A DNA stretch of 11,985 nt from Candidatus Poseidoniaceae archaeon. GTDB taxonomy: Archaea > Thermoplasmatota > Poseidoniia > Poseidoniales > Poseidoniaceae. Location of the stretch: contig JAKMFY010000004.1 in the NCBI GenBank assembly GCA_022425185.1, positions 1 through 11,985 of the forward strand, written 5' to 3'. Positions 1 through 11,985 of the stretch are shown here, one piece after another (position 1 is the stretch's first letter; every line of letters starts with the position of its first letter). The notes below the pieces were generated by a model, which saw only the letters and a program-made list of their open reading frames with translations, did no database searches and had not been told where the DNA came from. The position numbers were made by a program, and so were the translations under genes.

Positions 1-31
1 GATCAACTTTGAAGTCATCAATGAAGCCCAT
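1..31 (-). CDS. 5' end of an unknown protein gene (partial)
   Basis: Only the first ten codons are in the window (MGFIDDFKVD); the gene runs off the left edge. The start is supported by a strong Shine-Dalgarno, AGGAGGAG at 45-38, with six bases before the ATG at 31-29, and by a TATA-like stretch at 80-71. It lies 63 bp beyond the stop of the hypothetical gene at 95-640, on the same strand. Too little protein is visible to name a family. Confidence 0.55.
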   Translation of the reverse strand, partial: MGFIDDFKVD

Positions 32-70
32 ATTCTTCTCCTCCTGTTGCAATCCAAGGGGTGGAGACCT

Positions 71-80
71 CTATGTATTT
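71..80 (-). promoter_or_regulatory. Possible TATA box for the gene starting at 31
   Basis: On the minus strand this reads AAATACATAG, preceded by CG. Transcription starting about 25 nt downstream would give a leader of roughly 20 nt, enough to hold the AGGAGGAG ribosome site. The call rests on composition and spacing only. Confidence 0.35.
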
Positions 81-94
81 CGGTTAGATGTGAA

Positions 95-640
95 TTATTC
101 TTCTTCAAAATCACTGTTTGATAACCATGGAGCAGGTGCTTCGTATGGCCATGCATTCTTCGCTGTATTGAAACCTAATGAAGTAAACGACTTACGTGAT
201 TTTTTCCATGTTGGAAGAAGATATCCTATCTTTGATCGTTCTCCAAAGGTCCACCTCCATGGGCATCTCGGTAAACGAGAAACCCAATGTTGTAAGAGAT
301 GTTGAATTTGAGGATGCCCTGGACCACCTGGGAGAATCCAAGATGTGAGATGGACTGCTCCTGCAGAACCTCGCACTTCTGACCACGTTGTCAGTTCTAA
401 TCCAGTGAGTGGGCCGTCAAGTACGCGTAATCCCAGCGTTCGAGCAGTTTGGGCCATAGGCATGATGATTGCAAAGCGATCGACGAGGCGAGAGCCTTCA
501 TGTCGTTCAAGTTTCCAACCCTTTTCTTCGCACAATGTTCGAAGAGATCGGATGCATTCGACTGGTGTAACACTCAGCTCGAAATCAAGCGTATTTCGTC
601 GCACCATGCTTAGCGCACTAAGCAATATGGCAAGAACCAT
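95..640 (-). CDS. Hypothetical protein downstream of the stalk operon
   Basis: An uninterrupted 181-codon frame with a balanced, protein-like composition that I do not recognise. Residues 1-11 are hydrophobic (MVLAILLSALS) and could be a short membrane anchor or a buried strand. The next part reads as strand-helix-strand (around TPVECIRSLRTLCEEKGWKL), followed by a Gly/Pro turn (ILPGGPGHP) near residue 103, a basic, aromatic-rich stretch with many Trp, and an acidic end (SDFEEE). There is no clear SD or TATA before the ATG at 640; Met12 is an alternative start. It lies 133 bp after L12 on the same strand, so it may be a read-through gene of the ribosomal operon. The overlapping plus-strand frame at 345-686 is less protein-like. 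Confidence 0.65.
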   Translation of the reverse strand: MVLAILLSALSMVRRNTLDFELSVTPVECIRSLRTLCEEKGWKLERHEGSRLVDRFAIIMPMAQTARTLGLRVLDGPLTGLELTTWSEVRGSAGAVHLTSWILPGGPGHPQIQHLLQHWVSRLPRCPWRWTFGERSKIGYLLPTWKKSRKSFTSLGFNTAKNAWPYEAPAPWLSNSDFEEE

Positions 641-728
641 GCGACGCGATGTTACGCTGCGCGAATCCCATCTTAGGATGAGATGACTTCCTCTGGTTGA
701 GCTTCACGCAACGCTTGGAGAATCTCTC

Positions 729-743
729 GATGCCTTCGGCATC
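729..743 (-). repeat. Short perfect inverted repeat downstream of L12
   Basis: Six-base stem GATGCC / GGCATC with a three-base loop, 31 bp after the L12 stop codon. It could form a 3' hairpin on the stalk-operon mRNA. No T-run follows it on the minus strand, so it does not look like an intrinsic terminator. The rest of the 641-773 gap shows nothing else recognisable. Confidence 0.3.
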
Positions 744-773
744 AAGGATCTGGAGCGATGGTTTGTATTGTAC

Positions 774-1076
774 TCAACCGAATAGGGAGCCAAGACCTTC
801 GAAGCCGCCCGCTTCTTCTTCTTCCTCTTCCTCTGCTTCTTCAGCAGCGGCAGGGGCGTCAGCAGATGCAGCAGCCGGTGCAGCAGCAGCGGCTGGTGCA
901 GCGACCGCTTGGGTCATTGCTTCAGCGATGTCGACACCAGCGAGTGAAGCAACAAGTGCCTTAACTCGGGAAGCATCTACATCTACACCAGCAGCTTTCA
1001 GAGTAGCTGTGATGTTGTCTTCGGTCATTTCTTTTTCAGCAGCGTGCAGTAGCATAGCAGCATAAACGTATTCCAT
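774..1076 (-). CDS. rpl12: Ribosomal protein L12 (archaeal P1-type stalk protein)
   Basis: L12 dimers form the flexible stalk of the large subunit, bind L10, and recruit translation factors through the C-terminal tail. The 100-residue protein has the archaeal/eukaryotic layout: a helical N-terminal dimerisation domain (residues 1 to about 55, starting [20 protein letters not shown]), an Ala/Pro-rich hinge (about 58-80), a Glu run and a final [10 protein letters not shown] hydrophobic hook. Length and architecture match archaeal L12 and not the unrelated bacterial L7/L12. The start is fixed by GAGGTGA at 1089-1083, six bases before the ATG. It is the last gene of the L11-L1-L10-L12 operon, 30 bp after L10. 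Confidence 0.97.
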
Positions 1077-1082
1077 TTCATT

Positions 1083-1089
1083 TCACCTC
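1083..1089 (-). promoter_or_regulatory. Shine-Dalgarno of L12
   Basis: GAGGTGA, the full archaeal consensus, six bases upstream of the ATG. It lies in the 30-bp gap after the L10 stop codon. Confidence 0.85.
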
Positions 1090-1106
1090 AATATTTTGTG
1101 TTGTGT

Positions 1107-2126
1107 TCAGCCGAAAAGATCTCCAAGGCCGGCAAAGCCGCCCCCTTCTTCCTCTTCTTCCTCTTCTTCTTCTGCCTCGGCTGGGGCTTCAGACGCACTT
1201 TCAACGGCGGCAGCGGCTTCGGTTGCTGCTGAAGCAGCAGCACCGAGCATTGCGACCAATTCGTCGTCAAGGGCGGAGGAATCTAGAGAGCCTGCAATAC
1301 CAACGGCACTGCGGTGGGCTCTTCCAATCAAGTGAGGCAAGGTTTCAGCGGTTGCGATCGCTGCCTCAAGTGCAACAGCAAGCGCTTCTCTGCTTGCTTT
1401 GGCGAGCAATGTTGGCATGGTTTGTGATGTAAACCATGTAATGTTGCATGCGAGGTTGAATCCGCCTGCAGCCATTCCAATCAAGTCCTGTTCGAACTGC
1501 TCGTAATCGATGTCGAGTGTAGATGGTGAGAAAACAACACCATCTTCGTAGGTTCCGCAAAGACGGAGACCTGTTACGATTGGCTTGATTCCAATTTGTC
1601 CGAGAAGCATACCGAGGTCGCCTTCGAAGACTTCTCCAGCCTCGAGTGCAACGTGACGCTTCTGAATGTGGACTGTACCGCCCATAATCTTAGCAGGAAT
1701 TCCAACAGTATTCAATTCACCAACGATTGGACCAGGTGGCATACCGGTGTCTTGCTTTTCGACAATAATGTCTTCCGAAGCAACATCACCAGGCTTAGCA
1801 GCACGGCCGGCTTCTGTTTTCTTGAGTTCTGAAAAGACCTCAAAGGAATTGTAATCTGCTGTAGAAACAAGAGCAGGTTGGATTGCTCCGTCGAAGAGTT
1901 CCTCGAGAACAGAAAGATCCTTGCCAGCTTGCTCCCAGGCAATGCGCATCAATCGCTTCTTAGCAACGCGGATTTTCATGTTGCTTCGAAGATCATTACG
2001 CATTCCAATCATGGAATCGGCAGGAACGCCGTGAATATCGATGACAGCCAATGTTTCACCATTGTTGATGACATCAAGAAGGTCGTTGACTGTGTCACGC
2101 TTCCAACTCATGACCTTTGGAATCAC
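1107..2126 (-). CDS. rpl10: Ribosomal protein L10 (archaeal P0)
   Basis: L10/P0 anchors the stalk to 23S rRNA and carries L12 dimers on a C-terminal helical spine. The 339 residues comprise the N-terminal rRNA-binding domain (about 1-105; WKRDTVNDLLDVI through the VAKKRLMRIA region), the archaeal/eukaryotic insertion domain (about 110-185), the remainder of the core, an Ala-rich helical spine (about 225-305), then a Glu run ending in GGGFAGLGDLFG, nearly the same tail as L12. The start is GTG at 2126-2124, chosen because GGAGGTGG lies five bases upstream. The in-frame ATG at 2111 would be too far from that site. The GTG overlaps the L1 stop as GTGA, indicating translational coupling. Confidence 0.96.
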   Translation of the reverse strand: MIPKVMSWKRDTVNDLLDVINNGETLAVIDIHGVPADSMIGMRNDLRSNMKIRVAKKRLMRIAWEQAGKDLSVLEELFDGAIQPALVSTADYNSFEVFSELKKTEAGRAAKPGDVASEDIIVEKQDTGMPPGPIVGELNTVGIPAKIMGGTVHIQKRHVALEAGEVFEGDLGMLLGQIGIKPIVTGLRLCGTYEDGVVFSPSTLDIDYEQFEQDLIGMAAGGFNLACNITWFTSQTMPTLLAKASREALAVALEAAIATAETLPHLIGRAHRSAVGIAGSLDSSALDDELVAMLGAAASAATEAAAAVESASEAPAEAEEEEEEEEEGGGFAGLGDLFG

Positions 2127-2767
2127 AGTTCCACCTCCACTCGAGTTGAAGGTCCCATTGTTGTCTTGATGAAGAGGGAACGGATGTTACCTGCTCCTCG
2201 CTCAAGACGGCCGATGACACGGTTGTAGACTTCCATAGCGTTAGCGAGGAGTTCTTCTTGACTTTGACCAACAGTTCCAATGCTGGAATGGAAGGTCATC
2301 TTGTCGCCAGATTTGACAACAACAGTTGTTTTCAGACCTGTTGCGATAGCAGCTGGGTCAAGTGTTGGAGGAACTGGACGAGGCATTTTTCCTCGTGGAC
2401 CGAGAACTGTACCGAGGTATCGTCCAATGAGTCCCATGTGAGGAACTTCTGAAAGGAAGAAATCGAATTGGTTTCCGATCTTCTTTGCACGTCCTTTGTT
2501 TCCACCAAGTTCTTCGATTTCAGGTGGTGTAATGACATGAATACCTGCTTCACGAGCACGAGTTGCTGCTTCACCAGCAGCGAACATTGCGATTCGAACA
2601 TCCCGTCCACGGCCGGATGGAAGACGAACTTCCTCCTTGATACGGTTAGTTGGGTTCTTCAAATCGACATCCTTGATTGTAAATTGGATGTCCATTGATT
2701 CAACGAATTTACGCTCTGGAGCGTTTTCGATGGCTTCTTTGATGGCGTTACTGATGTTTTCTTCCAT
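2123..2767 (-). CDS. rpl1: Ribosomal protein L1
   Basis: L1 forms the mobile stalk beside the E site, helps release deacylated tRNA and, in studied methanogens, represses its own operon by binding the mRNA. The 214-residue protein is full length for archaea. It has the split two-domain fold: domain I from both termini (KEAIENAPERKFVESMDIQF near residue 10, and the C-terminal TTMGPSTRVEVEL) and an inserted domain II (about 65-155) containing the conserved LGPRGKMPRPVPPT segment. The ATG at 2767 is preceded by GAGGTGAGA. The gene follows L11 after 57 bp holding a kink-turn-like hairpin and overlaps L10 by four bases. Confidence 0.96.
   Translation of the reverse strand: MEENISNAIKEAIENAPERKFVESMDIQFTIKDVDLKNPTNRIKEEVRLPSGRGRDVRIAMFAAGEAATRAREAGIHVITPPEIEELGGNKGRAKKIGNQFDFFLSEVPHMGLIGRYLGTVLGPRGKMPRPVPPTLDPAAIATGLKTTVVVKSGDKMTFHSSIGTVGQSQEELLANAMEVYNRVIGRLERGAGNIRSLFIKTTMGPSTRVEVEL
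2131..2138 (-). promoter_or_regulatory. Shine-Dalgarno of L10 inside the L1 coding end
   Basis: GGAGGTGG encodes part of the final VEVEL of L1 and also serves as ribosome site for L10. It decides the GTG start at 2126 over the ATG at 2111. Confidence 0.75.
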
Positions 2768-2771
2768 ATTA

Positions 2772-2780
2772 TCTCACCTC
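2772..2780 (-). promoter_or_regulatory. Shine-Dalgarno of L1
   Basis: GAGGTGAGA followed by TAAT and the ATG. The same GAGGTGA occurs a second time 24 bases upstream (2804-2798), inside the 5' arm and loop of the adjacent hairpin, with its complement ACCTC (2795-2791) between the two copies. Confidence 0.85.
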
Positions 2781-2781
2781 T

Positions 2782-2810
2782 GCAGTCGGCGAGGTTTTCA
2801 CCTCTCCTGC
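2782..2810 (-). promoter_or_regulatory. Kink-turn-like RNA hairpin in the L11-L1 leader
   Basis: The minus-strand RNA reads, in order: GCAG (2810-2807), GA (2806-2805), GAGGU (2804-2800), a GAAA tetraloop (2799-2796), ACCUC (2795-2791), GCC (2790-2788), GA (2787-2786), CUGC (2785-2782). The stems are GCAG/CUGC and GAGGU/ACCUC. They are separated by GA opposite GCC-GA, that is, a three-nucleotide bulge followed by tandem sheared G-A pairs, with the bulge on the strand required by the k-turn consensus. In archaea k-turns are bound by L7Ae. It ends one base before the L1 Shine-Dalgarno. The structure is read by eye and the regulatory role is inferred. L1 binding to the same asymmetric internal loop is an alternative. 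Confidence 0.6.
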
Positions 2811-2824
2811 GGTTCGTGATTTGT

Positions 2825-3106
2825 TCAGTTAAATCTCTCGTCCCATTCTCCTTTGCTAATGATTTCGAGGGCTTCAACTGCCCAATGACCGTCGACTTTG
2901 ACACGCATGGAGACACAAGTTCCGATGATTTCTCGGGTTTGTGCCTTCAGGTCAGATCCGGTCAAGTGGCCGAGACCTGCTTTCTCACGAGCAACTTCCA
3001 TTGCTTTTTCGAGAGGCAAATCTTCGACAGCGGCGTCGAGACTACCATTGCACTTTTGTACACCCAGGGCTTTGATTATCAGCTTTGAGGTCCATGGCTT
3101 TGGCAT
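2825..3106 (-). CDS. rpl11: Ribosomal protein L11, C-terminal domain only
   Basis: L11 sits at the base of the stalk; its C-terminal domain binds the 23S GTPase-centre rRNA and its N-terminal domain contacts elongation factors and the L10-L12 stalk. This 93-residue frame matches only the C-terminal domain: TSKLIIKALGVQ (family: PPTSALIKKALG), LPLEKAMEVAREK, then the highly conserved IIGTCVSMRVKVDG and the archaeal tail GEWDERF. Normal archaeal L11 is about 155-165 residues, so some 65-70 N-terminal residues are missing. The start is well supported: ATG at 3106, GGAG at 3119-3116, a TATA-like box near 3159. An in-frame TAG lies at 3142-3140, and the upstream 162 bp encode no N-domain in any minus frame. 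It heads the L1-L10-L12 operon. Confidence 0.9.
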   Translation of the reverse strand: MPKPWTSKLIIKALGVQKCNGSLDAAVEDLPLEKAMEVAREKAGLGHLTGSDLKAQTREIIGTCVSMRVKVDGHWAVEALEIISKGEWDERFN

Positions 3107-3154
3107 TCTTACAACTCCTTCCTTACGAACGTAGGCAACCTAGCGACCAAACTC

Positions 3155-3166
3155 CCCTATTTAATC
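3155..3166 (-). promoter_or_regulatory. Promoter of the stalk operon (TATA box)
   Basis: GATTAAATAGGG on the minus strand, about 53 nt before the L11 ATG. Initiation 25 nt downstream, near 3134, would leave a leader of about 28 nt containing GGAAGGAG. A small inverted repeat TAGG-TTG-CCTA (3142-3132) lies at the expected start of the transcript. The position of this box confirms that transcription begins just before the shortened L11. Confidence 0.6.
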
Positions 3167-3238
3167 GCGCCGCGTCAAATGTTACTCAGTTGAAGGACGA
3201 ATGTTTTCATTCTCTGTGTCAAAACATTGTACCACTTC

Positions 3239-3248
3239 TCTTAATATG
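3239..3248 (+). promoter_or_regulatory. Promoter of the TSP3-repeat membrane protein (TATA box)
   Basis: TCTTAATATG, centred about 25 nt before the ATG at 3269. This spacing places the transcript start at or next to the start codon, so the mRNA is probably leaderless; no SD precedes the ATG. Together with the TATA-like box at 3155-3166 it makes this a compact divergent promoter region. Confidence 0.55.
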
Positions 3249-3268
3249 AAAACGGCCAACGGACATTT

Positions 3269-5482
3269 ATGTCGCACTACACGCGTTTCGCAAGTATCCT
3301 CATGGTTGCCATGCTGTTTACAATGATCCCTTCTATTGATGCTAACAACTCGGGCAAGATTGGGCAAAGCAGCAGTGGCTGTACCTGCCACAATACAGAT
3401 GCAATGATCATACCATCTATGACGGGGTTGCCTTCCCAATACACACCCGGGGCTACGTATTCCCTCACTTGGACAAGTAGCAGTATGTCATCCAGTGGAC
3501 AAGGTGGATTCAATCTTGACGCATCGGCAGGGACATGGTCGAATCTTGGAAATCGAGTGAAGATTCTCAATGGAGAACTCACTCATAGTAACGATGGACA
3601 GCGCTCATGGACTGCTGACTGGACTGCTCCTGCAATTGGAACAGGCGATGTTGATTTCAAAATAGCGGTTCTGTTTGCAAACGCAAACTCTCAGAACTCA
3701 GGCGATAACTGGGGTACAAATCAATTCGCTGTACCTGAAGGCGCCCCTCCACCAAACACGCCTCCAACAGTCTCCAATCTCGGTTTAACGCCTAACGGAG
3801 ATGTTACATCTGCTCAATCCTTTACAGTCAGTTACACATTCGATGATAACGACGGTGATCAGGAAGGTCCAACGCAGATTCGTTGGTTTATTGATGGAAA
3901 CCCTGCCCCAGTTCACAACGATGCGAAGACAATTACAGGATCCTCCACCTCCGTTGGTGAAGTATGGACTGTAGAAGTTACACCTCATGATGGAACAGAA
4001 CTCGGGCCAATTGCACAGTGTCCGGATTCTGCTACAATCGTCGATGCGGATTCAGATAATGATGGAACTCCAGATGGACAAGATGCTTTTCCGAACGACC
4101 CTACTGAAACGACAGATTCGGACAATGATGGTACGGGAGACAATGCGGACGCATTTCCAAACGACTCTACTGAAACCGTCGATACAGACGGTGATGGCAC
4201 TGGAGACAACGCTGATGCATTCCCCAATGACGCTACTGAAACCGTCGATACAGATGGCGATGGCACTGGAGACAACGCTGACGCTTTCCCAACAGACCCT
4301 AACGAAATAGCGGATACTGATGGCGATACAGTTGGCGATAATGCAGATGCATTCCCGAACGACCCTAGTGAAACAACGGATTCTGATGGAGACACTGTCG
4401 GCGACAATGCGGACGCATTCCCGAATGACCCTACTGAAACAACAGATACTGATGGAGACACTGTCGGAGATAACACTGACGTTTTCCCAGACGACCCTAC
4501 TGAATCTGTAGATTCTGACGACGATGGCGTTGGAGATAACAGCGATTGGGCTCCAAACGATCCTACTGAAACTGCAGATACTGATGGCGATGATGTAGGC
4601 GATAACGCTGACGTATTTCCTACAGATGCAACTGAATCGAGCGATTCAGACCAAGACATGATCGGAGATAATGCAGATACAGATGACGATAATGACGGTC
4701 TATTGGATACAGAAGAAGCAACAATCGGTACAGACCCATTTGATGAAGACACCGACGGCGATGAAGTCAACGACAAGGAAGATGCATTGCCGCTCGATGC
4801 AAGTGAAACACTCGACTTTGATCAGGACGGAACAGGAGACAATGCCGATACTGACGATGACAACGATGGGCTAAGCGATATGGATGAGCTCACAAAGGGT
4901 ACTGACCGATTCGATGCTGACTCAGATGATGATACCGTACTGGATGGTGCAGATGCATTCCCACTTGATGCAACAGAAACAACCGATTCTGATGCAGATG
5001 GAGTTGGCGATAATGCTGACGTATTCCCGAACGATGCAAACGAAACGATGGATTCTGATGCAGATGGTGTCGGAAACAATGCTGATGCGTTCCCAAACGA
5101 TCCTGATGAAACCATGGATAGCGATGGAAACGGTGTTGGCGATAATGAACAGAAAGCACAGGAAGAGGAAGATGCTGCTCAGATGCAGTTGATGATCATC
5201 ATCGGTGTTGGTCTGGTTCTTGTTGTTCTTGGCGCAGTCCTCTTCATGCGACGAAAGGGTGGCGAAGATTCTGAAGCAAAGATAACGACTCCTTTACCTC
5301 TGACTGAACCTCTTGCATCCTCTCAGCCATTGTATCCTACTCAGACACCTCAACCTGTACAGCCTGTTATTGCAGAACCAACTGTTGAGAATCAATGGAC
5401 AGATGAAGCAGGTCACACATGGCGACAAATGAGCGATGGTTCGAGTCTTTGGTGGAACGGAAGCGATTGGCAAAAAGTCTAG
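3269..5482 (+). CDS. Type I membrane protein: choice-of-anchor V/Reeler-like domain, TSP3 calcium repeats, TM, Trp-rich tail
   Basis: The 737-residue protein is exported and anchored at its C-terminus. Residues 1-25 form a signal peptide (…MIPSIDA). Residues about 30-155 fit the choice-of-anchor V / Reeler-like pattern: GCTCHN at 37-42, LPSQYTPGATYSLT, GGFNLDASAG, the ELTHS motif, WTADWTAP and GDVDFKIAVLFANAN. An Ig/PKD-like region follows (about 160-255). From residue 259 to about 625 there are some 16 Asp-rich repeats of 22 residues (DTDGDGTGDNADAFPND-type), the TSP3 calcium-binding pattern; two units are lengthened by a TDDDNDGL…E insert. A TM helix (about 641-660) precedes MRRKGG, then a cytosolic Pro-rich linker and a final 30-residue module with five Trp. 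The partner is unknown; adhesion or surface structure is an inference. Confidence 0.88.
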   Translation: MSHYTRFASILMVAMLFTMIPSIDANNSGKIGQSSSGCTCHNTDAMIIPSMTGLPSQYTPGATYSLTWTSSSMSSSGQGGFNLDASAGTWSNLGNRVKILNGELTHSNDGQRSWTADWTAPAIGTGDVDFKIAVLFANANSQNSGDNWGTNQFAVPEGAPPPNTPPTVSNLGLTPNGDVTSAQSFTVSYTFDDNDGDQEGPTQIRWFIDGNPAPVHNDAKTITGSSTSVGEVWTVEVTPHDGTELGPIAQCPDSATIVDADSDNDGTPDGQDAFPNDPTETTDSDNDGTGDNADAFPNDSTETVDTDGDGTGDNADAFPNDATETVDTDGDGTGDNADAFPTDPNEIADTDGDTVGDNADAFPNDPSETTDSDGDTVGDNADAFPNDPTETTDTDGDTVGDNTDVFPDDPTESVDSDDDGVGDNSDWAPNDPTETADTDGDDVGDNADVFPTDATESSDSDQDMIGDNADTDDDNDGLLDTEEATIGTDPFDEDTDGDEVNDKEDALPLDASETLDFDQDGTGDNADTDDDNDGLSDMDELTKGTDRFDADSDDDTVLDGADAFPLDATETTDSDADGVGDNADVFPNDANETMDSDADGVGNNADAFPNDPDETMDSDGNGVGDNEQKAQEEEDAAQMQLMIIIGVGLVLVVLGAVLFMRRKGGEDSEAKITTPLPLTEPLASSQPLYPTQTPQPVQPVIAEPTVENQWTDEAGHTWRQMSDGSSLWWNGSDWQKV
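4043..5150 (+). repeat. Tandem 66-bp repeats encoding TSP3 calcium-binding units
   Basis: About 16 units, mostly 66 bp (22 codons), each coding for an Asp-rich loop, GDNADAFPND and a TET-type ending. Units near 4185-4310 are almost identical in DNA, which suggests fairly recent duplication. The others have drifted at synonymous sites. The units around 4640-4750 and 4810-4920 are longer, with an inserted TDDDNDGL segment. The long antisense open frame across this region is a by-product of the repeat composition. Confidence 0.85.
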
Positions 5483-5497
5483 ACTTCTCTGAGAACA

Positions 5498-5507
5498 TCT
5501 AAAAAAC
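5498..5507 (+). promoter_or_regulatory. Possible promoter of the ABC transporter genes
   Basis: TCTAAAAAAC, centred about 25 nt before the ATG at 5527, in the 44-bp gap after the membrane-protein gene. The spacing matches the other leaderless starts here. A weak GTGAGG also precedes the ATG, so co-transcription with the upstream gene is equally possible. Confidence 0.35.
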
Positions 5508-5526
5508 TCCTTCCCGTGAGGAATGC

Positions 5527-6321
5527 ATGGCCATTATACAACTCGAAGGGTTGAGTCGACACTACGGTGAAGATGAAACACTTGTCAAGGCATTAGATGG
5601 CATTTCGATTTCCATAGAACAGGGCGAAATCGTTGCTCTACTTGGTCCATCAGGATCTGGGAAAACCACTTTGTTGAATACCATTGCAGCACTGGACGTA
5701 CCTCTCGAAGGAACCTACCTTTTCGATGGTGAAGAAGTTCCTCTTGGACATGTTGAGAAAATGACCACCTTCCGAAGAGAGAATATTGGATACATCTTCC
5801 AATTTTTCAATCTCCTTGCAGATTTAACAGCGCTTGAAAACGTTCTTCTCGTTCAGGATTTGTCTGGTTCACGGAATAAACAAAGAGCGCTTGATTTACT
5901 CGATTCCGTTGGTTTGAAGGGTCTTGAAGACCGATTTCCTTCTCAGATGTCTGGAGGACAGAGGCAGCGAGTAGCAATCGCTCGCTCACTGGCAAAGAGT
6001 CCACGAATTATTCTTGGGGATGAATTAACAGGTAATCTCGATACTGAAACTTCGACAATGGTGATGGAAGCACTCGTTAAAACATGTAGAAAAGAGAAGA
6101 TGACGACTATTTTTGTCACTCACGATGAATCTCTTACGAGATTTGCTACTCGAATCATTCGACTCGATAGTGGGAAAGTTGTTGATGATGAAAAAGGTGG
6201 ACTCAAGAGTATTGTTAACACAACGAAATTTGTTGCAGAATCGGTTGTTGATGAAGCTGTAGGTGGCGCAAAAAGAATCACTTCCAAACTCAAAGACATT
6301 GCAAAATCGATTGTGGAGTGA
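5527..6321 (+). CDS. ABC transporter ATPase, LolD/MacB family
   Basis: Nucleotide-binding subunit of a MacB/LolCDE-type exporter, which uses ATP to drive extrusion or release of a substrate at the membrane without classic channel-type transport. In the 264 residues: Walker A GPSGSGKT at 40-47, Q-loop Gln92 (YIFQFFNLL), signature MSGGQRQR from 141, Walker B with D-loop [11 protein letters not shown] at 162-172, H-loop His199 (VTHD). The family usually has DEPTGNLD; here Pro is Leu. A C-terminal extension of about 40 residues (about 225-264) beyond the normal end is helical and basic, and could contact the permease or membrane. The permease start lies five bases after its stop, so the two are coupled. 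The substrate is not indicated. Confidence 0.95.
6315..6321 (+). promoter_or_regulatory. Shine-Dalgarno of the permease, overlapping the ATPase stop
   Basis: GGAGTGA contains the TGA stop of the ATPase gene and lies four bases before GTG at 6326. It decides the permease start; the open frame extends to another GTG at 6263 but that lies well inside the ATPase gene. Confidence 0.7.
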
Positions 6322-6325
6322 TTTC

Positions 6326-8710
6326 GTGAACACCCTGCTTCTTCGTCGCTTGTCACGCAGTCTTATGCGGACGAAGTTGCGAGTTTTGACAGTGGTTCTG
6401 CTCATCACGTTATCTGTCTATGCGGGAATTGTCTTTTCAGAACACTCTCGTAACGCCGATCAAGTGTATGATGACTTCTACAGCGAAACGAACTTTTCAG
6501 ATTTAATTGTTACAACCTATGAAATGGATTCCCGAGATAATCTCTCAGCCATATGTGACTCTTTTGAGGCCGAAGCATGTGAGACTGGTATTGTCCTTTC
6601 AGGTCAAGCAAACAGAATGGTTGATTCTAGCGATCCTGAATGGTTAGTTTCGACATTTTATGGGCTTGAGAACGGTTCTGTCAATTCGATATGGGCTATT
6701 GAAGGTTCAATTACTCCAGGTGAAGGACAGATTGTCATCGATGCCCATTTCGCTCAAGACAAGGATATTGAAATGAAGATTGGCGATTCGATTGAAGTGA
6801 TTGTTGGAGAAGGCGGTTTTCAAACTCTTGAAGTCGTCGGCTTTGCAAATAGTCCGCTCGAACTCTTTTATGCGGAACCCGGTTCGATTCTGCCCCAAAC
6901 TTCGACCTTCGTCGTGGGTTATCTCGATGTAGAATATCTGGCAACTCTTTCTGGCAACGCACCAGGTGCAAGGAATACATTGGGCATCGACCTTGAAGGA
7001 ACACCTGCATTTGATCTGTCCGATACCGAAGAGAATGAAGGTGAAGAACTCCAGGTGCTAAAGGACAGTATCTCTGCCTACATGACTGAAGCAGAAACCA
7101 ACGGAACTGTCGTAGACCGTGGTGAACTAAGCGCAGAACTTCTTCGATTGGATAAAGAAGGAATTGAGAATTCGACTCCGTTTATTTTGGGCCTTCTTCT
7201 CTTCATCAGTGGCCTTGTCATCGCCGTATCACTAGATCGATTGATTCGTACACAGTCACGTGAAATCGCTGTATTAAGAACAATTGGGGCTTCAACAAAA
7301 GACATCATGTTTGGCTATCTTTTGATTCCGCTTGTTCTTGGAATCCCTGGCGTTCTCGTGGGTATTTTACTTGCACTGTCTTCCATTGGCTCAGAAGGTT
7401 TCACAGCATTCTATTTCTCCTTCCTCGGAATCCCCGTCGTTGAGACACATCATTACGTTGACATCATTTTGACAATCAGCCTCTCTGCTCTTGGAATTAT
7501 CTTTCTCTTTGGTATTCGACCAGCATGGAAAGCTGCAAGATTGCAGCCATTGGAGATTCTGGGTCAAGGTACACAACGAACACCGAACAAAATCATCTCT
7601 TCATTGACTTCTAAACTCCCTCCTGGCATTGGTTTAGGTCTTCGCTCGACCTTCAGGAAACCTGCTCGTCTGGTAGTTACTCTCCTTGCGCTTTCTTTGG
7701 CAATGGTTATTCTTGGCGGTACGATGATGTTCATCTCTGGTTTCACGGGAGCATTCAATGAGGCAGTTGACGAACAAGAAAATTGGGAGTATCAAATCGC
7801 TGCTTATCCTTCAAACATTGATAACATCACGCAATGGGCTGAAAATGATACGCTTTCTTACGAACTTACATTGGTCACGCAAGCGACTCTTTACGATTCG
7901 AACAAAATTTTGACGCTCAAAGGATACGATGTTGTCTCGGAAAATGATGACGCGATGCACCGATTCAACCTTCTCGATGGAAGGCTCCCTGTCCAAGGCA
8001 AAGCCGTTCCGGAAGTGATTCTTGATGAAGGATCTGCTGAACTCGAATCGTATTCTATTGGAGATACATTGACGATTGATTTTGAAGGAATTCAACACGA
8101 TCTCGAAATTGTAGGCATTGCTCGAGAACTGACTCGTTCAGTACATTTCCATCGAGCAGACCTCTCGCCAATTGTAGATTCTGAAGCAAATGGTGCATGG
8201 GTTGTTCTTTCAGATGAAGGAAATATCGAAGACATCCGATTCTCAACAATATCAATTATCGAAAAGGAAACAATGGTTGAAGGATTTAACGAATTAATAG
8301 ACCAACAAAAGAACGCAATGCAAGCTGTTTATGTCCTTGGAGGAATCATGGCAATTGCAATTCTCTTCAACACTCTTTTGATCAATCTAAGTGAACGAGA
8401 TGCGGAACTTGCAACGTTGAGAGTCTTGGGGGCGAGCCGTACGAGATTAGCAGTCATTCTCACTGTCGAACATACGTTCATTGGACTGGTCGGAGGGATT
8501 GCAGGTGCTCTTGCAAGTATTGCATATTATGCAGCCATGTCGAACTCGTTCTCAACATGGGGGTTCCATATTCCTGTCATCATCAACACTGCTGTTTTCT
8601 TACAGATAATTGGATTTGTACTCGTTGCAGCATTGTTGACAACGCCTGTAGGTATCTTGCGAATTGGTAGAATGAATCTGCTAGAAGTTGTTGCAAGACA
8701 CGAACGATGA
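6326..8710 (+). CDS. ABC transporter permease with two FtsX domains (MacB/LolC-E type)
   Basis: Membrane partner of the preceding ATPase. The 794 residues from GTG contain a duplicated FtsX architecture with eight predicted TM helices: TM1 (about 20-37), an extracellular domain (about 40-280), TM2-4 (about 284-305, 328-352, 377-397), TM5 (about 446-472), a second extracellular domain (about 475-660), TM6-8 (about 665-688, 707-735, 751-775). After TM2 and TM6 come the family's coupling segments, RTQSREIAVLRTIGAS and SERDAELATLRVLGAS. One chain therefore supplies both half-permeases. The extracellular domains contain SIGDTLTIDFEG-type beta folds typical of MacB periplasmic core domains. Likely an exporter or mechanotransmission system; substrate unknown. 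Confidence 0.93.
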   Translation: MNTLLLRRLSRSLMRTKLRVLTVVLLITLSVYAGIVFSEHSRNADQVYDDFYSETNFSDLIVTTYEMDSRDNLSAICDSFEAEACETGIVLSGQANRMVDSSDPEWLVSTFYGLENGSVNSIWAIEGSITPGEGQIVIDAHFAQDKDIEMKIGDSIEVIVGEGGFQTLEVVGFANSPLELFYAEPGSILPQTSTFVVGYLDVEYLATLSGNAPGARNTLGIDLEGTPAFDLSDTEENEGEELQVLKDSISAYMTEAETNGTVVDRGELSAELLRLDKEGIENSTPFILGLLLFISGLVIAVSLDRLIRTQSREIAVLRTIGASTKDIMFGYLLIPLVLGIPGVLVGILLALSSIGSEGFTAFYFSFLGIPVVETHHYVDIILTISLSALGIIFLFGIRPAWKAARLQPLEILGQGTQRTPNKIISSLTSKLPPGIGLGLRSTFRKPARLVVTLLALSLAMVILGGTMMFISGFTGAFNEAVDEQENWEYQIAAYPSNIDNITQWAENDTLSYELTLVTQATLYDSNKILTLKGYDVVSENDDAMHRFNLLDGRLPVQGKAVPEVILDEGSAELESYSIGDTLTIDFEGIQHDLEIVGIARELTRSVHFHRADLSPIVDSEANGAWVVLSDEGNIEDIRFSTISIIEKETMVEGFNELIDQQKNAMQAVYVLGGIMAIAILFNTLLINLSERDAELATLRVLGASRTRLAVILTVEHTFIGLVGGIAGALASIAYYAAMSNSFSTWGFHIPVIINTAVFLQIIGFVLVAALLTTPVGILRIGRMNLLEVVARHER

Positions 8711-8744
8711 CAATGTTTGAAAGCAGTCCTTTCTAGGGGGCATT

Positions 8745-9146
8745 ATGTACAAAAGACTGATCGCGATGGTGATCTTTACGATCATCTTTCTGACCTTCTT
8801 CAATAATACAGAGGCAAGTTGGGAACGAGTCAATGTTGAAACCTTTGAGGAAGAAATCATGAACAATCCTGATGCACTTCTTCTCGATGTTCGAACAACT
8901 GCTGAATGGGAACAGGACGGGCATTTAGAGGATGCTCTACTCATTCCCCATTCGGATCTTGAATCACGCTCAGATGAGTTGCCTGAGGATAAGGAAGAAC
9001 TGATACTGCTGTATTGTCGAAGTGGAAATCGTTCCCAAGAGGCTGCTGAAACGCTTATTGATTTGGGCTATATGAACATCATAGAACTTGCATCAGGTAT
9101 CAACGGCTGGAAGGATGCAGACAAGCCTGTTCTGTATGGTGAATGA
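8745..9146 (+). CDS. Exported rhodanese-domain protein
   Basis: Single-domain rhodanese (sulfurtransferase fold) of 133 residues with an N-terminal signal peptide or anchor (MYKRLIAMVIFTIIFLTFF, likely cut near TEA-S at 24/25). The domain shows LLLDVRTTAEWEQDGHL (about 45-61) and the active-site loop CRSGNR with the persulfide-forming Cys91, followed by LASGINGWKDA. The six-residue loop fits sulfur transfer and not phosphatase-type relatives. The ATG at 8745 follows AGGGGG at 8736-8741. It lies 34 bp after the permease gene and its stop is one base before the start of a second rhodanese. Its external location suggests handling of thiosulfate, persulfide or protein thiols outside the membrane; the substrate is not shown. 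Confidence 0.9.
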   Translation: MYKRLIAMVIFTIIFLTFFNNTEASWERVNVETFEEEIMNNPDALLLDVRTTAEWEQDGHLEDALLIPHSDLESRSDELPEDKEELILLYCRSGNRSQEAAETLIDLGYMNIIELASGINGWKDADKPVLYGE

Positions 9147-9147
9147 T

Positions 9148-9456
9148 ATGTGGTCGTTCATCAAATCCCTCTTTTCATCTGGCCCATCATTGTCTGAACT
9201 TATGGTTGAGGAGTACATTGTTGTTGATGTTCGAACGCATGGAGAATTCCAATCTGGACACGTACAAGGTTCGAAAAACATTCCGTTGAATCAGATAAAA
9301 GGTAAGATTTCAAGTCTTAAAAAGCAGAAGAAAAGAGTGATTCTTTGTTGTGCAAGCGGAATGCGTAGTGGACGTGCGACTAAGATTCTGCGCTCAGAAG
9401 GAGTCGACGCCCACAACGGTGGATCTTGGCAAAATGTTGCACTTGCAAAGAAATAA
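9148..9456 (+). CDS. Cytosolic rhodanese-domain protein
   Basis: A second small rhodanese, 102 residues from the ATG at 9148. Motifs: YIVVDVRTHGEFQSGHV (about 23-39), NIPLNQI, active-site loop CASGMR with catalytic Cys68 preceded by Cys67, and the typical end NGGSWQNV. There is no signal peptide; the short N-terminal MWSFIKSLFSS is amphipathic and may sit on the membrane. The start was chosen next to GGTGA at 9139-9143, immediately after the upstream TGA; ATG at 9136, overlapping the upstream gene, is an alternative. With the exported rhodanese it may form an outside/inside pair for sulfane sulfur, which is an inference from adjacency alone. Confidence 0.88.
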   Translation: MWSFIKSLFSSGPSLSELMVEEYIVVDVRTHGEFQSGHVQGSKNIPLNQIKGKISSLKKQKKRVILCCASGMRSGRATKILRSEGVDAHNGGSWQNVALAKK

Positions 9457-9496
9457 TATCGTAAAGAGAAAATGTTGAACAATAAATCCAAATTGA

Positions 9497-9504
9497 CTAA
9501 ATAG
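9497..9504 (+). promoter_or_regulatory. Promoter of the secreted protein gene at 9525 (TATA box)
   Basis: CTAAATAG, centred about 25 nt before the ATG at 9525, in the 68-bp gap after the second rhodanese. The spacing implies a leaderless mRNA. No convincing SD is present. Confidence 0.55.
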
Positions 9505-9524
9505 TTTCATAACTCGGTCAGGAC

Positions 9525-11075
9525 ATGAAGAAAATCGTTGCAATAATTGTTCTTTTTTTGTTGTGTCAATCCATAACGTACCCAAATACACTTGATACAG
9601 AATCATACCACTTACATACAGAAGCTCGATCAAATGGATATAATCCAATTGCAAATGTTTCAATCTCTGTGAATGAGAGCGTCGAAGACAATCTCCAATT
9701 TGTGAGTACAAAAACAGTATCAAACGTAGATTGGGACGTCTACAGAATCCTCCTTCCAGAGGAAGGTTCTCTTACTGTAAATTTCGATGGTAGCAATTCC
9801 AATGATCTTGGATCAAGTGACCCGCTTGTACTCTATCAATGGAAGGTCTTTTTCGATGCTCCTTATGGTGACGATACATTCAACTTAGACGGACATGTTT
9901 TCAACGAAACAGAATCAAGCAACGGACTTTGGTCGTACTCATTCCAAAACCAAACAGTTGATTCCACAGAATCTGTCGAGAATCAAATTCGTGTTGAATT
10001 GACCGTTACTGACTATGAAGGAAATGTGAGTGAAAAGTTCCGAACATACTTCATTGTCGGAGGAATGCAATCCGAAATGAATGAACCTGTCATTGAACTC
10101 GAGGTTCAATCAAATGCCACAGGAGTTCAATCTGATAATGTCTATGTCAATGGAACGGTCATCAGTGGAGCAGGATTTGAAAGTGACGTCTATGTTGAGA
10201 TTACATTCGAGGAAGATTGGTTCAATGGAACCTCTCTTGAGTTGTATTATCTGGGGGTTGAACATTTGTGGGATAGGACGAACTCTCTTACAGATGGTGA
10301 CACGTTCTCACTAATGCTTTCGATTGAATCCTTGAAGGGAAACACCTCGTTTTCGCAGGCAGTCTACATCAAAATTTACGAAATGTATCCTGATTACAGC
10401 ATCCAATACAGCACGGTTCTTACCTCCTATTCCGTGATTGTACCTTTCATTGATTCGGATAACGATGGAGTAGCAGATGACTTTGATGCCTATCCGAATG
10501 ATCCAACTCAAGCAATGGACGAGGAACCATGCTCTCTTGTTCGAAATGAAGATGCTCCTTATGTATGCGCCTATGTTGAAAATTGGGATGATGGTGTTTG
10601 GGAAATGGAAGGCCAAGTTAGTCAAATGATCGAATACACAATAGAAGCAGGGAATATGCCAGGAGATACTGTACGTTACATCAACGTTGACGCTTATTTC
10701 ACTGGAGATACAGATTGGTGTTTCCCTGTTTTTGATGGAAATTCTCTTCCGAACGTCGATGGCGCATGTTCAGGATTATCTCTTGGCTATGGTCTTGAAA
10801 TCGACGAATCTGGCTTCACTACAGATTCACTCTTACCATTAGACACATTTGAGGATGGATGTTATACATTAGCCATTTCAGAAGTCAGTATTACTGATTC
10901 ATTTGGTAATGAGATTGCCGATGCAATGGATGCATTAGATGACTTAGCAATCGTTGTTCCGGACATCTCAAAATTTTCAATTGGTAATGTGGATTGTTCA
11001 GATACTGATTATGAGATGGTTAATGGTTGGAATGAAATGACTCTTTCTGAGTATGAACCACCAAGTCAATCGTAA
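9525..11075 (+). CDS. Secreted protein with PKD-like region, one TSP3 motif and six-Cys C-terminal region; apparent loss of anchor
   Basis: A 516-residue exported protein of unknown function. Residues 1 to about 20 form a signal peptide (MKKIVAIIVLFLLCQSITYP); the Cys there does not fit a good lipobox. A beta-rich PKD-like domain spans about 60-178 (SLTVNFDGSNSNDLGSSDPL, ending VELTVTDYEGN). A second beta region (about 185-300) precedes a single TSP3-type calcium loop (DSDNDGVADDFDAYPNDPTQ from residue 310). The C-terminal part (about 335-505) has six Cys, enough for three disulfides. The frame stops at TAA (11073-11075) after PPSQS, but continues in frame past a second TAA into a plausible TM anchor (see 11076-11189). 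It is convergent with the peroxiredoxin gene. Confidence 0.85.
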   Translation: MKKIVAIIVLFLLCQSITYPNTLDTESYHLHTEARSNGYNPIANVSISVNESVEDNLQFVSTKTVSNVDWDVYRILLPEEGSLTVNFDGSNSNDLGSSDPLVLYQWKVFFDAPYGDDTFNLDGHVFNETESSNGLWSYSFQNQTVDSTESVENQIRVELTVTDYEGNVSEKFRTYFIVGGMQSEMNEPVIELEVQSNATGVQSDNVYVNGTVISGAGFESDVYVEITFEEDWFNGTSLELYYLGVEHLWDRTNSLTDGDTFSLMLSIESLKGNTSFSQAVYIKIYEMYPDYSIQYSTVLTSYSVIVPFIDSDNDGVADDFDAYPNDPTQAMDEEPCSLVRNEDAPYVCAYVENWDDGVWEMEGQVSQMIEYTIEAGNMPGDTVRYINVDAYFTGDTDWCFPVFDGNSLPNVDGACSGLSLGYGLEIDESGFTTDSLLPLDTFEDGCYTLAISEVSITDSFGNEIADAMDALDDLAIVVPDISKFSIGNVDCSDTDYEMVNGWNEMTLSEYEPPSQS

Positions 11076-11189
11076 GAATCTGATGATGACTCAGATTAAG
11101 AAACGTCCTCTCCTCTACCATTCGTGGGAATGCTTCCTACGATTGTGATGCTTGCGTTCATAGTAATGATTACGAAGAAAGATTCCTGA
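11076..11189 (+). pseudogene. In-frame C-terminal membrane-anchor remnant beyond two TAA codons
   Basis: In the same frame as the gene ending at 11075, the codons read ESDDDSD, TAA (11097-11099), ETSS, then LPFVGMLPTIVMLAFIVMI, TKKDS and TGA (11187-11189). This is an acidic/Ser linker, a hydrophobic span of about 19 residues and Lys-Lys, the usual layout of a C-terminal anchor on archaeal surface proteins. The preserved frame and sense argue that it once belonged to, or is sometimes joined to, the upstream protein. Both stops are TAA, one base from GAA (Glu), which would suit the linker. Sequencing errors, decay or read-through cannot be told apart from one sequence. Confidence 0.6.
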
Positions 11190-11227
11190 ACTATACGGTG
11201 AAGAGCGAACCTGTTTGGATTAAATCC

Positions 11228-11695
11228 TCAAAGTGATGCTGCAAGAGCAACGACTGCATCATAGTCCGGCTCAACACCAGGATTTTCAGCAACCCAGCGA
11301 TGTTGAACTGTGCCGTTCTTATCGACAACGATAACAACTCTGTTTGCACTAACATAGCCTTCAATGCCACCGAGGCCGACAAATGTTGCATCATATGCTT
11401 TCACGACATCTCGATCGATATCAGAGAGAAGGGTGAATTCAAGGTTGTATTTTCGAGCGAACTCAGCGTTTGCCCAAGGTGAATCGACACTGATTCCTAG
11501 AACGGTTGCATCAGCGCTGTTTAGCTTGCCAAGATTGTCTTGGAATGCACACATTTCTTTGTCGCAAACGCCTGTGAAAGCACCAGGGTAGAATGCAAGA
11601 ATGACTGTTTTTCCAGCGTAGTCTGAAAGACTAACATCACTCTTTTGAGTATTCTTCAGGGTGAAGGCGGGCGCGGTTTCTCCAATATTGACCAT
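11228..11695 (-). CDS. Peroxiredoxin (PrxQ/BCP-AhpE-like)
   Basis: Thiol peroxidase that reduces hydrogen peroxide and organic hydroperoxides in the cytosol, regenerated by thioredoxin-type donors. The 155 residues start MVNIGETAPAFTLKN and carry the PxxxTxxC active-site motif as PGAFTGVC (37-44), peroxidatic Cys44, and a second Cys at 49 (CDKEMC), the spacing of the intrahelical resolving Cys in PrxQ-type enzymes. ISVDSPWANAEFARKY and the end RWVAENPGVEPDYD are typical of the archaeal/actinobacterial branch. The ATG at 11695 was chosen over an upstream ATG at 11749 because the family begins here and a TATA-like box lies 25 nt upstream. It follows katG after 40 bp. Confidence 0.95.
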   Translation of the reverse strand: MVNIGETAPAFTLKNTQKSDVSLSDYAGKTVILAFYPGAFTGVCDKEMCAFQDNLGKLNSADATVLGISVDSPWANAEFARKYNLEFTLLSDIDRDVVKAYDATFVGLGGIEGYVSANRVVIVVDKNGTVQHRWVAENPGVEPDYDAVVALAASL

Positions 11696-11715
11696 ATTGA
11701 GGCCAAGAATATCCG

Positions 11716-11725
11716 ACGTATATCC
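11716..11725 (-). promoter_or_regulatory. Promoter of the peroxiredoxin gene (TATA box)
   Basis: GGATATACGT on the minus strand, preceded by CGAAAC (possible BRE), centred about 26 nt before the ATG at 11695. This suggests a leaderless transcript of its own, although read-through from katG is possible. Confidence 0.45.
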
Positions 11726-11735
11726 GTTTCGTCGT

Positions 11736-11985
<250 letters not shown>

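Follow-up and report, generated by a model that had tools for sequence, protein, structure and literature searches.

Two in-frame TAA codons, apparently private to one draft genome, precede a predicted membrane-anchoring tail in a Poseidoniales surface-protein gene

In a stretch of 11,985 nucleotides from a Candidatus Poseidoniaceae archaeon (GenBank assembly GCA_022425185.1, contig JAKMFY010000004.1, positions 1 to 11,985; hereafter the window), a surface-protein gene continues in frame, past two TAA codons, into a putatively membrane-anchoring tail that, judged by sequence comparison, is real and coding in the two close sequences found. Both stops look like they are private to this one assembled sequence among the close sequences compared. 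Overall, the observation made in a preliminary description of the region is real and its recognition of a hidden tail is correct; its proposal of stop-codon read-through is unsupported.

As read here, the gene occupies positions 9525-11075 of the forward strand (516 codons followed by TAA) and encodes a secreted surface protein with an N-terminal hydrophobic signal and then a beta-rich ectodomain. Translation of positions 9525-11189 (+) reaches EYEPPSQS, a stop, ESDDDSD, a second stop, ETSSPLPFVGMLPTIVMLAFIVMITKKDS and a final stop, confirming the earlier claim that the frame runs on past its TAA, via a second TAA, to a hydrophobic segment, KKDS and TGA. On the same strand, the first TAA (11073-11075) is followed by the acidic/Ser linker ESDDDSD (11076-11096), the second TAA (11097-11099), the linker ETSS (11100-11111), and a PLPFVG motif with its hydrophobic segment (PLPFVGMLPTIVMLAFIVMIT; residues 530-550; 11112-11174), the last of these recognized from translation, hydropathy and a structure model. 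The basic end KKDS with its TGA (11175-11189) coincides with the end of the gene in a close relative, and this TGA (11187-11189) is probably the ancestral gene end. Upstream, positions 5527-9456 encode in a row an ABC-transporter ATPase, an FtsX/MacB-like permease and two rhodanese-domain proteins, and a second surface protein is found at 3269-5482, with a choice-of-anchor V domain near its start, Asp-rich thrombospondin-type-3-like repeats, and a hydrophobic segment with a long tail.

The window contig is part of a draft genome (G000; 301 contigs, 76.34% complete), presumably a MAG, which we compared with a relative of the same genus (G022). Window and relative are identical at 1693 of 1723 aligned bases (~98%) with 0 gaps; within the gene, 29 of 1662 bases differ and no indel occurs. 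The G022 frame carries on uninterrupted for 554 codons until the shared TGA, reading GGA where the window has its first stop and GAA where it has its second. When 5.8 billion proteins were searched, P0001 (554 residues; a cluster of 21 member sequences) was identified; in a comparison at the protein level only, it is identical to the window protein in every one of the 552 sense residues, and Glu stands in place of each stop. The codon position of the first stop consequently differs in all three sequences (stop in the window, Gly in G022, Glu in P0001). Where the preliminary description had proposed looking in homologues for GAA, CAA or TCA at the two positions, P0001 agrees with Glu at both, and G022 agrees at the second (GAA) but carries Gly (GGA) at the first. 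Because the tail is coding without stops in G022 and present in P0001, it is not a chance open stretch, as had been argued from its occurrence in the correct frame. Furthermore, with every sense residue shared and Glu in both stop positions of P0001, the simplest origin of the stops is a change of GAA to TAA, twice.

Sequences found to share the C-terminal part were limited to G022 and P0001. Among 24 genomes of the genus searched with window positions 10300-11240, six gave any match, and full-length matches were confined to G000 and G022. Residues 380-554 of the G022 protein retrieved no protein at an E-value of 0.001, residues 325-554 of P0001 retrieved P0001 alone and no other relative of the C-terminal part, and a fuzzy pattern search of viral contigs gave no match. 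Similarity along the window is mosaic: against L045, of the 136 mismatches counted over the aligned piece 8609-11985, only 29 fall within positions 9449-11226, positions 2523-8547 are 91.3% identical, and the ribosomal-protein end (796-2464) is 98.1% identical. This pattern suggests recent exchange between two lineages, and the identity of the ribosomal-protein end means that high identity is not unique to the surface-protein gene.

Structural features of the full-length protein were examined in P0001, whose AlphaFold model (a weak one, with a mean pLDDT of 52.5) comprises a helix at residues 3-16, strands between residues 46 and 306, and a terminal helix at residues 537-553 (low confidence). 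Matches of this model in the PDB were assorted, largely beta-sandwich proteins with low TM-scores. The hydrophobicity peak (2.59 on the Kyte-Doolittle scale for the best 17-residue window) is followed by TKKDS. Given that PLPFVG precedes the hydrophobic stretch, as in sorting signals, a plain membrane helix is not obligatory. A wider homologue search, in which the 7994 candidates sharing most words were scored, listed 54 proteins including P0001. Applying a Kyte-Doolittle rule (17-residue window, cut-off 1.6, first 60 residues excluded), a hydrophobic segment near or before the C-terminus was identified in 54 of 54, most of which align only outside the tail; in 43 it forms a short anchor-like C-terminal tail, and in 11 it is followed by a longer one. 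Apart from P0001, the listed homologues align over at most 62% of the query and many are near-duplicates of one another; the 54 proteins show a family habit, not the ancestry of the present tail.

In this lineage the gene would normally yield a secreted surface protein of 554 residues that a tripartite C-terminal tail of acidic linker, LPFVG motif, hydrophobic segment and KK keeps at the membrane. Two Glu codons, the first of which we infer from the P0001 protein to have been GAA, would have become stops through GAA to TAA changes 24 bases apart, each a single G-to-T step, with the T bases presumably made by a local base-call or consensus error in a fragmented draft genome. We hold such an error in the draft assembly to be the origin of both TAA codons with slightly better than even confidence, and the stops are probably absent from most cells of the population. 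Consistent with this reading, P0001 differs from the window protein at nothing but the two stops, with Glu in both, the G022 frame is open over its 554 codons with no indel, and the source genome is fragmented and incomplete. Past the first stop (codons 518-554, second stop excluded), codon differences from G022 comprise 3 synonymous and 0 nonsynonymous changes, and the tail therefore displays no visible decay; ahead of the stop the corresponding numbers are 12 and 11, a contrast that is not significant (Fisher P = 0.24). Within the G022 linker (codons 517-529), a G-to-T change creates a stop at 4 of 11 G bases, such that a short G-to-T run there would easily yield stops. A third T, at position 11081 (TCT in the window, TCG in G022), may be part of this run as well.

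Other observations sit less comfortably with a consensus error. Five of the 29 differences from G022 fall within 39 bases near the stops, a clustering that is not significant (P = 0.078), and protein identity does not establish that P0001 derives from the same strain or the same reads, or that all members of its cluster lack the stops. Moreover, window genes matched by G022 ORFs contain no further stop or split which, together with the sampled G000 gene ends matching those of G022, indicates that the assembly is not generally error-ridden. Across the genome samples described below, 89 of 494 G022 ORFs were matched in G000, and 5 of these, including the window gene, meet stops there. In three of the other four the stop lies 5, 12 or 30 residues from the ORF start, which, judged by eye, likely reflects mechanical start choice; the remaining stop falls at residue 34 of a 121-residue ORF that, also judged by eye, may be spurious. 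In the reverse direction, 2 of 87 matched G000 ORFs meet stops in G022 (three stops), and two apparent gene splits (L107 and L141) coincide with runs of N in G022. No paper on assembly or G-to-T errors was found among the open-licence papers searched.

Alternatively, the stops may represent a real, very recent nonsense allele, in which translation stops at 11073 and the tail is lost, so that the ectodomain is released, or in which the gene is on its way to becoming a pseudogene. We regard this as a serious possibility, if somewhat short of an even chance. The tail is intact in both close sequences, and the linker position of the first stop tolerates change, since its codon is a stop, Gly or Glu in the three sequences. 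Two stops in one linker would also be expected of a newly dispensable tail, and the gene lies within a stretch closer to G022 than its immediate flanks are, a sign of exchange between lineages. Against such an allele, all 54 listed homologues possess a hydrophobic segment near or before the C-terminus (most aligning outside the tail), the tail shows no decay, and two nonsense but zero missense hits relative to P0001 are needed when, in the G022 sequence, only 245 of the 4986 single-base changes create a stop; this last argument loses force, as it was the stops that led to the finding being selected. The earlier suggestion of a recent conversion from anchored to released protein thus stands in part: recent loss of a tail that is coding in close sequences is possible, but consensus error, touched on in that description only through its advice to check raw reads, fits slightly better and is slightly favoured. 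Known nonsense alleles and draft-genome consensus errors share with the present case intact close relatives, stop-making single-base changes and an intact downstream frame; the present case differs in its pair of stops, which are separated by 24 bases and can each be reached from GAA by a single G-to-T change. A templated origin of the stop-bearing stretch by gene conversion was rejected, a genome search with 64 bases around it having returned, besides itself, only 17- and 19-base matches (best E 0.6).

A strain-level switch, in which lineages would flip between anchored and released forms through G-to-T steps while slight UAA read-through kept some protein anchored, appears very unlikely. An older conversion to a secreted protein with a neutrally drifting tail, which might account for there being two stops and not one, is more improbable still, given 0 nonsynonymous differences and no indel relative to G022 in the sense codons beyond the first stop, and the existence of P0001, whose sequence is otherwise identical and includes the tail, comes close to refuting it.

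The use of TAA was assessed by comparing gene ends between a G000 sample of 61 stretches (321,714 bases, of which 53,839 are N; window included) and a G022 sample of 80 stretches (723,334 bases; 52,538 N). Mechanical calling gave 225 G000 ORFs with a length of 100 codons or more. Of these, 87 matched G022 at a minimum of 75% identity and, leaving out 6 with unaligned ends and 1 off its contig, 80 were comparable. Gene ends agreed to within one codon in 78 and were off by 4 codons in one; the window gene alone, at +38 codons, showed a long extension past its stop, which also accords with the preferred reading of a local consensus error. TAA occurs in G000 at 22 of the 78 agreeing ends, corresponding in G022 to TAA in 20 and TGA in 2, so that 22 of 23 TAA-ending genes stop at the same place in both genomes, the exception being the window gene. 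In the genes sampled TAA thus acts as an ordinary stop and, with gene ends agreeing between the genomes in this sample, which gives no sign of a changed code, genome-wide reassignment was rejected. Programmed or general TAA read-through giving both released and anchored forms, as had been proposed, is accordingly hard to credit: the tail is intact and in frame, and its differences from G022 beyond the stops are all synonymous (3; too few to test), but neither close sequence has the stops (GGA/GAA in G022, Glu/Glu in P0001), no second long extension is found among the comparable ends, and no tRNA with a UUA anticodon is present among the 4 and 15 tRNAs of the partial G000 and G022 samples, respectively. 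The window gene resembles programmed read-through genes in its in-frame stop followed by a coding extension, and differs from them in that the stop is unconserved in close sequences and is a TAA without general read-through.

The form of the tail also raises the question of how the protein would be anchored. Substrates of archaeosortases combine a motif with a hydrophobic segment and basic residues; they undergo cleavage and become anchored through a lipid (PMC7157517). The Pfam exosortase model PF09721 matched in 9 of 60 relatives, over its cut-off in none of the 60, and homologues of one ORF behind these matches turned up in 41 of the 60 Poseidoniales genomes searched (35 of 36 from family f1, 6 of 24 from f2). 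With TIGR04178 (cut-off 23), two such ORFs (L041:1108-2130 and L043:901-1956, both on the minus strand) scored 38.8 and 38.7 bits, a G000 fragment cut by its contig end and matching a Poseidoniales homologue (G000:C12:77-673; L076:2-676, minus strand) scored 41.1, and the G022 copy (contig C74; L139:8998-10053, plus strand) scored 37.7. A pattern of our own for Cys, Arg and His positions, which we take to be catalytic, was matched in 15 of 15 archaeosortase-family loci looked at, with the His visible in each. Archaeosortase-family matches in three further genomes (G039, G043 and G024; L189, L190 and L195) contain one internal stop each (TAA, TAG and TGA).

Among sampled ORFs with anchor-like ends, PGF precedes the hydrophobic segment in L148, L089 and L114, and LPFPIG does so in a gene that the two genomes share (L148, L141); a PGF- or LPF-like motif is missing from several of the other ORFs. 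The window-gene tail has LPFVG and no PGF or recognised CTERM motif, the three NCBIfam families listed for P0001 (scan, E up to 10) including no CTERM model, and it has a C-terminal hydrophobic segment followed by basic residues in a genome encoding an archaeosortase-family enzyme. It shares with the PGF-motif proteins of Haloferax volcanii an N-terminal secretion signal, a C-terminal motif, hydrophobic segment and basic residues, as well as an archaeosortase-family protein in the same genome, but differs in having LPFVG in place of PGF, in matching no CTERM model, and in lying behind two stops. Given this resemblance and the archaeosortase-family gene found alongside it in the genome, what looks like an anchor may be a sorting signal that is processed, and an archaeosortase might carry out this processing on the tail of the window gene's product. 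Among the open-licence papers searched, none linking archaeosortase with Marine Group II or Poseidoniales was found, and Thermoplasmatota were unmentioned among the archaeosortase/CTERM papers listed.

Taken together, the stops probably say little about biology, apart from the warning that nonsense codons near a gene's end, when seen in only one draft genome, should be backed by reads; if real, they would capture the loss of an anchor from a surface protein inside one lineage of marine archaea. The archaeosortase side result may be more useful than the stops themselves. With an archaeosortase-family match in 35 of 36 f1 genomes and LPF- or PGF-like tails among the sampled ORFs, some "membrane anchors" of Poseidoniales may be processed sorting signals.
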